Assembly (NCBI GenBank): GCA_016000085.1
Contig: JAECRT010000013.1
Location: forward strand, 1-49,691
Source: Sphingomonadaceae bacterium
Lineage (GTDB): Bacteria > Pseudomonadota > Alphaproteobacteria > Sphingomonadales > Sphingomonadaceae
Length of the DNA stretch: 49,691 nt
Direction: 5' to 3'
Shown: positions 39,149 to 39,400 of the stretch, one piece after another
Position numbering within the stretch: the stretch's first letter is position 1
Layout of the letters: every line of letters starts with the position of its first letter
Made by a program: the position numbers and the translations under genes
The notes under the pieces: generated by a model
What the model saw: the letters and a program-made list of their open reading frames with translations, nothing else
The model's database searches: none
Told to the model about the DNA's origin: nothing

Positions 39149-39283
39149 TCAGGCGCTCAGGCTCTTGCGGCCGCGAGCGCGACGCGCACGAATGATATTG
39201 CGGCCGCCGGGGGTCTCCATGCGTGCGCGGAAACCGTGACGGCGCTTCCGAACCAGATTGCTCGGCTGAAAAGTGCGCTTCAT
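39149..39283 (-). CDS. rpmH: 50S ribosomal protein L34
   Basis: 44 residues: [20 protein letters not shown], then [20 protein letters not shown] and SLSA. This is a near-consensus L34. ATG 39283 with GAGGAA upstream. First gene of rpmH-rnpA-yidD-yidC. Its leader contains an intrinsic-terminator hairpin (39316-39341). Confidence 0.98.
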
Positions 39284-39315
39284 CGTTCATTCCTCAAAAT
39301 AGAATCGGGCGTGAC

Positions 39316-39341
39316 AAAAAAGGGCCGCCACACGGGCGACC
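39316..39341 (-). terminator. Intrinsic terminator/attenuator candidate in the rpmH leader
   Basis: On the minus strand, GGTCGCC (39341-39335) pairs with GGCGGCC (39329-39323) through seven pairs including one G-U, with a CGTGT loop, followed by CTTTTTTG. This is a classic intrinsic terminator ending about 33 bases before the rpmH ATG, and downstream of the best promoter candidate. Confidence 0.6.
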
Positions 39342-39357
39342 GCAAGTCAGGGGGCGT

Positions 39358-39386
39358 CCGATAGGCAAAAGGGGCGCGCAAGTCAA
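39358..39386 (-). promoter_or_regulatory. Putative rpmH operon promoter
   Basis: Minus strand TTGACT (39386-39381), 17-bp spacer, TATCGG (39363-39358). The -35 is near consensus; the -10 is weaker. The -35 lies in the loop of the dsbA-side terminator stem at 39371-39400. The 9-mer TGACTTGCG occurs twice (39385-39377 and 39349-39341), 36 bp apart. Confidence 0.5.
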
Positions 39387-39400
39387 TGGCCGAGCGCCCC
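39366..39400 (-). terminator. Terminator after the DsbA-like gene
   Basis: Stem GGGGCGC (39400-39394) with GCGCCCC (39377-39371), 16-base loop, followed by TTTTG on the minus strand. It lies 16 bp after the DsbA-like stop and overlaps the rpmH promoter candidate. Confidence 0.65.

Follow-up and report, generated by a model that had tools for sequence, protein, structure and literature searches.

A weak, promoter-anchored hairpin of terminator shape in the rpmH leader of sphingomonads: a candidate leaky attenuator

Whether transcription of a ribosomal protein operon may have to pass a terminator before its first gene is reached is a question raised by the rpmH locus of the sphingomonads. The analysed window, 49,691 nucleotides of a Sphingomonadaceae bacterium (contig JAECRT010000013.1), carries rpmH, the gene of ribosomal protein L34, on the minus strand (39149..39283, ATG at 39283-39281), and relatives of this open reading frame were found in 93 of 94 genomes of the genus. 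As the first gene of the operon it is followed by open reading frames which we take to be rnpA, yidD and yidC, and it is preceded by a DsbA-like gene (Pfam PF01323, E 3.7e-26). The first-pass annotation had placed two intrinsic-terminator shapes in series between the DsbA-like gene and rpmH, the upstream one with the -35 box in its loop and the downstream one between the promoter and the rpmH ATG.

All elements of the leader lie on the minus strand. The predicted promoter consists of TTGACT (39381..39386), which is plausible as the rpmH -35, and of a predicted -10, TATCGG (39358..39363), with a spacer of 17; the pattern TTGA[CT], 16-18 nt, TA was present in 123 of 125 leaders. According to PMC8407463, a T at -7 is often missing from the -10 boxes of Alphaproteobacteria. 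A spacing rule of about 36 nt from the start of the -35 puts the predicted transcription start region at 39347..39352. The downstream hairpin (39323..39341) begins 45 nt after the -35, which corresponds to positions of about +7 to +10 in the predicted RNA. Its arms, GGTCGCC (39341-39335) and GGCGGCC (39329-39323), were read directly from the sequence and enclose the loop CGTGT, and a folding energy of -12.6 kcal/mol was determined in a 37-nt piece. The stem is followed by an unpaired C (39322) and six T (39321-39316), together the U-run C-TTTTTT (39316..39322), and a Shine-Dalgarno-like GAGGA stands at 39291..39295. The terminator-shaped hairpin between promoter and ATG was confirmed, with stem, C and six T at 39341-39316.

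The upstream stem-loop (39371..39400) was also found as annotated, with the arms GGGGCGC and GCGCCCC (39400-39394 and 39377-39371), TTGACT (39386-39381) in the loop and TTTT after the stem. So was the 9-bp repeat TGACTTGCG, the two copies of which occupy 39385-39377 and 39349-39341. Judged by the window sequence alone, both hairpins lie close to what chance gives: the leader held 2 overlapping terminator-like matches, both to the one downstream hairpin, versus 1.2 ± 1.1 in shuffles, and the fold z of the downstream hairpin was -1.59, that of the upstream one -1.07. It is conservation that tells the two apart. A terminator-like hairpin spanning the -35 was detected in 1 of 35 Sphingobium leaders, namely that of the window, and in 1 of 90 others; the repeat was absent from the other 34 Sphingobium leaders and from all 90 others. 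The idea of a promoter nested in a functional terminator was accordingly given up, the stem being private to this species, as was a functional part for the repeat; both are most simply explained by chance.

The conservation of the downstream hairpin was determined in two samples. The genus sample comprised the leaders of 35 Sphingobium species, that is the 30 best-scoring L34 matches and 5 distant ones, from 93 matches in 94 genomes. The family sample comprised 90 leaders of other genera (about 74 by database labels) of the same GTDB family, which are part of the available matches, one search alone giving 193 in 199 genomes. A script requiring TTGA[CT], 16-18 nt, TA and then a single hairpin starting 34-58 nt after the -35 and followed by T-rich sequence found hairpin and U-run in 34 of 35 genus leaders and 76 of 90 others (110/125). 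The loss of stem and U-run in close relatives, which the annotation had named as the result that would speak against it, was thus not observed. After correction by eye, by which L061, L092 and L101 were taken as chance matches, a better hairpin was chosen in L105, and L088, L095, L106 and L115, with stems that are long or imperfect or a -10 that has no TA, were added, the element was kept in 111 of 125 family leaders. In these, a GC-rich stem is immediately followed by the U-run, usually with one unpaired base in between, which is the shape of an intrinsic terminator. The covariance model R1 of promoter and hairpin (84 rows, 12 from the genus) matched the rpmH leader in all 93 genus genomes with an rpmH match, 90 of them at E < 1e-5, with coordinates read manually; in G018, G060 and G076 the match was weak and the U-run unlike the usual one.

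The 14 leaders without hairpin and U-run were L048, L051, L054, L058, L059, L061, L077, L079, L092, L099, L101, L109, L112 and L149. By eye, L059, L061, L077, L079, L092, L099 and L109 have a start-proximal stem without a U-run, which indicates that the stem outlives the U-run. Elsewhere in the order, outside the family, rpmH is preceded by the promoter motif but rarely by the U-run, at least 5 T in the 10 nt after the hairpin being present in 3 of 37; since these leaders are mostly without it, the operon does not need the U-run. Counting any hairpin in register was non-discriminating, with 34 of 37 even outside the family.

The alignment of 84 leaders revealed the compensatory stem changes that the first-pass annotation had proposed to look for, and these extend across the family. 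As the rows were pre-selected for TTGA[CT] and a hairpin, the invariance of TTGAC (84/84) and the U-run figures (81, 82 and 83 T in the 84 rows at columns 87-89) are conditional on that selection. The 7-bp stem was paired in 98.5% of 588 cells, 4 of the 7 pairs had changed on both sides, and 0 of 500 shuffles reached any of five measures of covariation. When the partner was shifted by 1-3 columns, pairing fell to 25-70%. The loop is variable in length and sequence. The wobbles of the stem are lopsided, with 58 cells having U in the 5' arm against G versus 11 with U in the 3' arm; the corresponding numbers were 19 and 20 in a set of 55 strong terminator-like hairpins taken from the window plus 400 kb of congener sequence. 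Due to this lopsidedness and the greater constancy of the 3' arm, the latter seems to be under some extra constraint. An outer pairing, UCGG/CCGA and UGAC/GUCA in a 132-nt fold, was rejected, as by eye it occurs in close relatives only and its 5' half lies before the predicted start.

The position of the hairpin is set by the promoter motif. The distance from the -35 start to the hairpin start was 43.0 ± 2.3 nt (n=106 leaders), a spread that is clipped by the script's requirement of 34-58 nt and has its mass at 39-47, and the distance to the start of the U-run was 64.4 ± 4.6 nt. From the start of the U-run to the ATG it was 15-86 nt (mean 41.7, sd 13.3, n=105). The element goes with the promoter motif and not with the ribosome-binding site. 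Under strict criteria, the window plus 400 kb of G038 (899,382 strand-bases in all) contained 36 promoter-like sites, of which one, that of rpmH, had a hairpin and U-run in register; a relaxed scan gave 20 in 1379, rpmH among these, and by eye the others were mostly unlike the rpmH leader. A co-directional upstream gene overlaps the rpmH promoter in L055, L056 and L144: its stop codon (TAA or TAG) starts the -10, and TTGAC lies within its last codons. With 43 nt between the beginning of the -35 and that of the hairpin, a transcript from the predicted start site would have only some 7 nt before the hairpin, and no antiterminator, leader ORF or peptide, or aptamer fits ahead of it.

The strength of the hairpin was compared with that of gene-end hairpins, defined as terminator-like hairpins at most 120 nt after ORF ends in the genus, a set of 49 in which one is the window's upstream stem. 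The stem reached the T-run in 26 of 103 rpmH leaders versus 31 of 49 gene-end hairpins, and 77 of the 103 leaders had one unpaired base between stem and T-run. The closing base next to the U-run was paired in 4 of 84 rows, and G stood opposite C in none of the 84, though G makes up 30% of the bases just upstream. By a formula after d'Aubenton-Carafa, the median score D of the leaders was -4.2 with 30 of 106 above 0; none of 220 control windows placed further upstream in these leaders had D > 0. The window's own hairpin, with a D of -9.3, would be missed by a terminator finder with that cut-off. The pattern GGCGGCCCTTTT occurred five times in the window's own genome and a reversed control pattern four times. 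The copies of GGCGGCC-C-TTTT in this genome were the leader, one contig-edge site, and L166, L168 and L170. In the last three, which lie 38-111 nt after an open frame of at least 144 codons and are probably gene-end terminators judging from this placement, the stem runs through the C to the T-run and D was 31-52. Neither the leader median nor the window score falls in that range. The rpmH leader hairpin is terminator-shaped and weak, and read-through is to be expected because of its weakness in comparison with gene-end terminators.

The leaders of L13, L33, S20, L28 and recA from 29 genomes of the family each were used for comparison. The usable loci were 13 of 29 for L13 (the rest being lost to the start or promoter pattern), 27 of 28 for L33 (two of the 27 being one leader twice in one genome, L274 and L297), 27 of 28 for S20, 23 of 28 for L28 and 20 of 27 for recA. 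The mean fold z of the first ~42 nt was -2.02 for L34 of other genera (n=88), -2.65 for L13 (n=13), -1.75 for L33 (n=27) and -1.32 for S20 (n=27); rpmH of other families gave -0.90 (n=37). When determined 20 nt further on, the values were -0.51 for L33, -0.08 for L13 and +0.13 for S20. There was no start-hairpin signal for L28 (+0.07, n=23) or for recA (-0.13, n=20), the latter being a poor control because its promoter lacks TTGAC and TTGTTC was used as the anchor. The recA leaders (L354-L380) often carry a TGTTC..GAACA palindrome, presumably LexA-like, at the -35 position instead of TTGAC. The mean for 23 other promoter-like sites of the genus was +0.47, a soft control, as these are pattern matches before length-called ORFs rather than known promoters. 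A hairpin at every promoter was rejected on the values of these sites, recA and L28. A hairpin at the start site therefore marks some ribosomal protein leaders, though not all of them, nor, with the soft control, promoters generally. At least 5 T within the next 10 nt were found in 66 of 88 leaders of L34, 20 of 27 of L33, 5 of 13 of L13 and 5 of 27 of S20.

Hairpins of related appearance were met elsewhere. The rpmG leaders (L270-L297, e.g. L276, L278 and L282) have a start-proximal hairpin and then a U-rich stretch in the register of rpmH, and the rplM leaders (L241-L269, e.g. L256, L262 and L267) show a strong hairpin close to the start, in most cases with no U-run next to it. Some of the examined secondary matches of R1 stand at promoters of other housekeeping genes and others at plain gene-end terminators or elsewhere; the genes concerned are presumably those of L13, L33, L28, S4, trigger factor, argD and trcR/DUF1013. 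In several species, at L178:10947-11016 (+), L225, L227, L231, L232 and L220, a promoter-like site is followed in the same register by a hairpin of the GGCGGCCCTTATCG type or a near variant, and the gene behind this leader is assumed to be trcR (DUF1013). A promoter-like site with a terminator-like hairpin and T-run just after it was also seen in L221, L222 and L224 of the genus and in L211 and L212 of another family, before a gene which we take to be acetylornithine aminotransferase-like, argD.

The rpmH hairpin may be a leaky, terminator-only attenuator, and the probability of this reading was estimated as just under one half (about 0.48). According to it, RNA polymerase would start at TTGACT-N17-TATCGG and make about 7-10 nt and then the 7-bp GC hairpin and the U-run. 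At about +30 to +36 a fraction of the polymerases would release an RNA of about 35 nt, and the rest would continue into rpmH and the genes behind it. The termination would be partial because the conserved stem ends one base before the U-run. Any regulation would have to act on the early elongation complex itself, through NusA, another polymerase-bound factor or the elongation speed, since the space upstream is too short for an antiterminator, leader peptide or aptamer; alternatively, there may be no regulation and the hairpin may simply set the expression level. A 5' leader without a preceding antiterminator, ORF or aptamer and a stability below that of gene-end terminators, as looked for in a terminator-only attenuator, were both found. 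The attenuator reading explains the stem, the adjacent U-run, the promoter anchoring and the weakness jointly. The confidence stays near one half because we infer the termination, because some leaders retain a stem but no U-run, and because a U-run is mostly missing from the hairpins of L13 and S20. These leaders and those of other families fit a hairpin function other than termination.

Such a function would be that of a 5'-terminal mRNA hairpin serving transcript protection, translation or promoter escape, with the U-rich stretch as a landing site of the ribosome (S1) or Hfq, and this, the main rival, is regarded as somewhat less probable than attenuation. Hairpins in the same register before rpmG (L33), rplM (L13) and, more weakly, rpsT (S20) agree with it, as do the presence of the U-run in only some of these leaders and the several rpmH leaders that keep a stem without it. 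Against it, the rpmH U-run abuts the stem whereas its distance to the start codon varies between 15 and 86 nt, and the near-invariant U-run and the near-absent paired closing base are left unexplained; moreover, 5'-end protection by a stem is generally most effective within a few nt of the 5' end. That the hairpin is the terminator of the gene upstream of rpmH, an insulator standing by chance after the rpmH promoter, is very improbable. Of the 30 Sphingobium loci L001-L030, 28 were shown by tblastn to have a co-directional DsbA-like gene upstream; L010 offers just 179 nt of upstream sequence, and L016 has a different gene there. In L055, L056 and L144 the upstream stop codon coincides with the -10 box. 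Both findings would suit an insulator. Nevertheless, the hairpin is locked to the promoter motif, and it is not just the upstream gene's terminator because it persists in 11 loci (L036, L037, L040, L042, L053, L072, L100, L102, L103, L107 and L142) where a divergent comM match begins 164-290 nt before the ATG and leaves little room for another gene. The comM-neighboured L051, L058 and L079 are without the hairpin; a general loss of it at loci without a co-directional upstream gene was not seen. These upstream genes of other genera, which we presume to be comM, carry the Mg-chelatase domains PF01078/PF13541 and run in the opposite direction. A co-directional gene often lies between them and rpmH in other genera, and the Pfam search of its protein gave no match, so that DsbA-like applies to the Sphingobium gene only.

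The leader might also yield a short trans-acting regulatory RNA, as proposed for UpsM, since promoter and terminator shape together would give an RNA of about 35 nt, and a weak full-length match to the Rfam family suhB/mmgR was obtained at 39308-39373 (-). Its score of 20.2 bits is half the cut-off of 41, for which reason membership was rejected, and the match probably reflects just the shared hairpin and U-run. With no family at cut-off in the 15 related loci and no conserved unpaired stretch as a seed in a loop that varies in length and sequence, such an RNA is highly unlikely. Hardly any probability is given to a DNA-level element, namely an operator whose palindrome, for example GCGGCCGC, would fall at the beginning of the transcribed region. 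In favour of an operator, C immediately precedes the 5' arm in 61 of 84 rows, with G one position further out in 58 of 84, and by the unequal wobbles the 3' arm varies less; in many leaders, however, GTCGCC or an A before the arm breaks the palindrome, and the covariation runs between the two arms.

Well-studied attenuators have a sensor, and terminator-only leaders are less understood. The element is kept over most of a bacterial family and placed about as early as a terminator could work, and the operon behind it yields a ribosomal protein, the RNase P protein and the membrane insertase YidC. A wider proposal, that sphingomonads have a class of start-site-locked hairpins on the operons of L34 (with RNase P protein and YidC), L33, L13 and S20, that of L34 being a terminator that is weak by design and read by NusA or another elongation factor, is unlikely as a whole; under it, polymerase would choose before leaving its first 40 nt whether ribosome parts are made, and no sensor RNA would be involved. 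Natural variants make it testable in Zymomonas and Novosphingobium whether the hairpin terminates and what reads it, and Zymomonas RNA 3'-end data have been published according to PMC7566282.

In the search listings and text passages that the literature search covered, no report of an attenuator in the rpmH/L34 leader was found, and the Rfam leader models gave no family at cut-off for the window and 15 related loci. In the E. coli ampC attenuator, a hairpin and U-run right after the start site attenuate a constitutive promoter. The rpmH leader resembles it in the start-adjacent hairpin and U-run. The attenuation of ampC presumably needs a ribosome binding the leader before the hairpin, for which the rpmH leader has no room. 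The autogenous leaders of ribosomal proteins (PMC7247131) are alike in being structured leaders of ribosomal protein operons; L34 and rpmH are absent from the main text of that paper. Unlike these, the rpmH leader has a loop that varies and shows nothing like an rRNA-like binding structure, and the variable loop argues against a leader that binds L34.

The rimP-leader, as presented by Naville and Gautheret (2010, PMC2965389), is a short conserved terminator hairpin with a U-run in a ribosome-related operon with no visible antiterminator or sensor. It is described there as less stable than regular terminators and conserved in stem sequence. By this description, both leaders have a terminator-shaped hairpin that is weak, conserved in the stem and placed before ribosome-related genes, with no antiterminator or sensor in sight. 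The rpmH leader is not the rimP-leader itself, since its operon is that of rpmH rather than rimP-nusA-infB and its stem is GGYYGCC..GGCGGCC as opposed to GGGc..gCCC; the predicted hairpin start at about +7, the lock to the promoter and the presence in one family only set the rpmH leader apart. The UpsM/dcw leader of Rhodobacter sphaeroides is, according to PMC5089854, a 5' leader confined to one family, in which an intrinsic terminator precedes an essential gene cluster. Both leaders are Alphaproteobacterial and family-restricted; UpsM has a 268-nt leader and a longer sRNA, whereas the rpmH leader would give a piece of about 35 nt.
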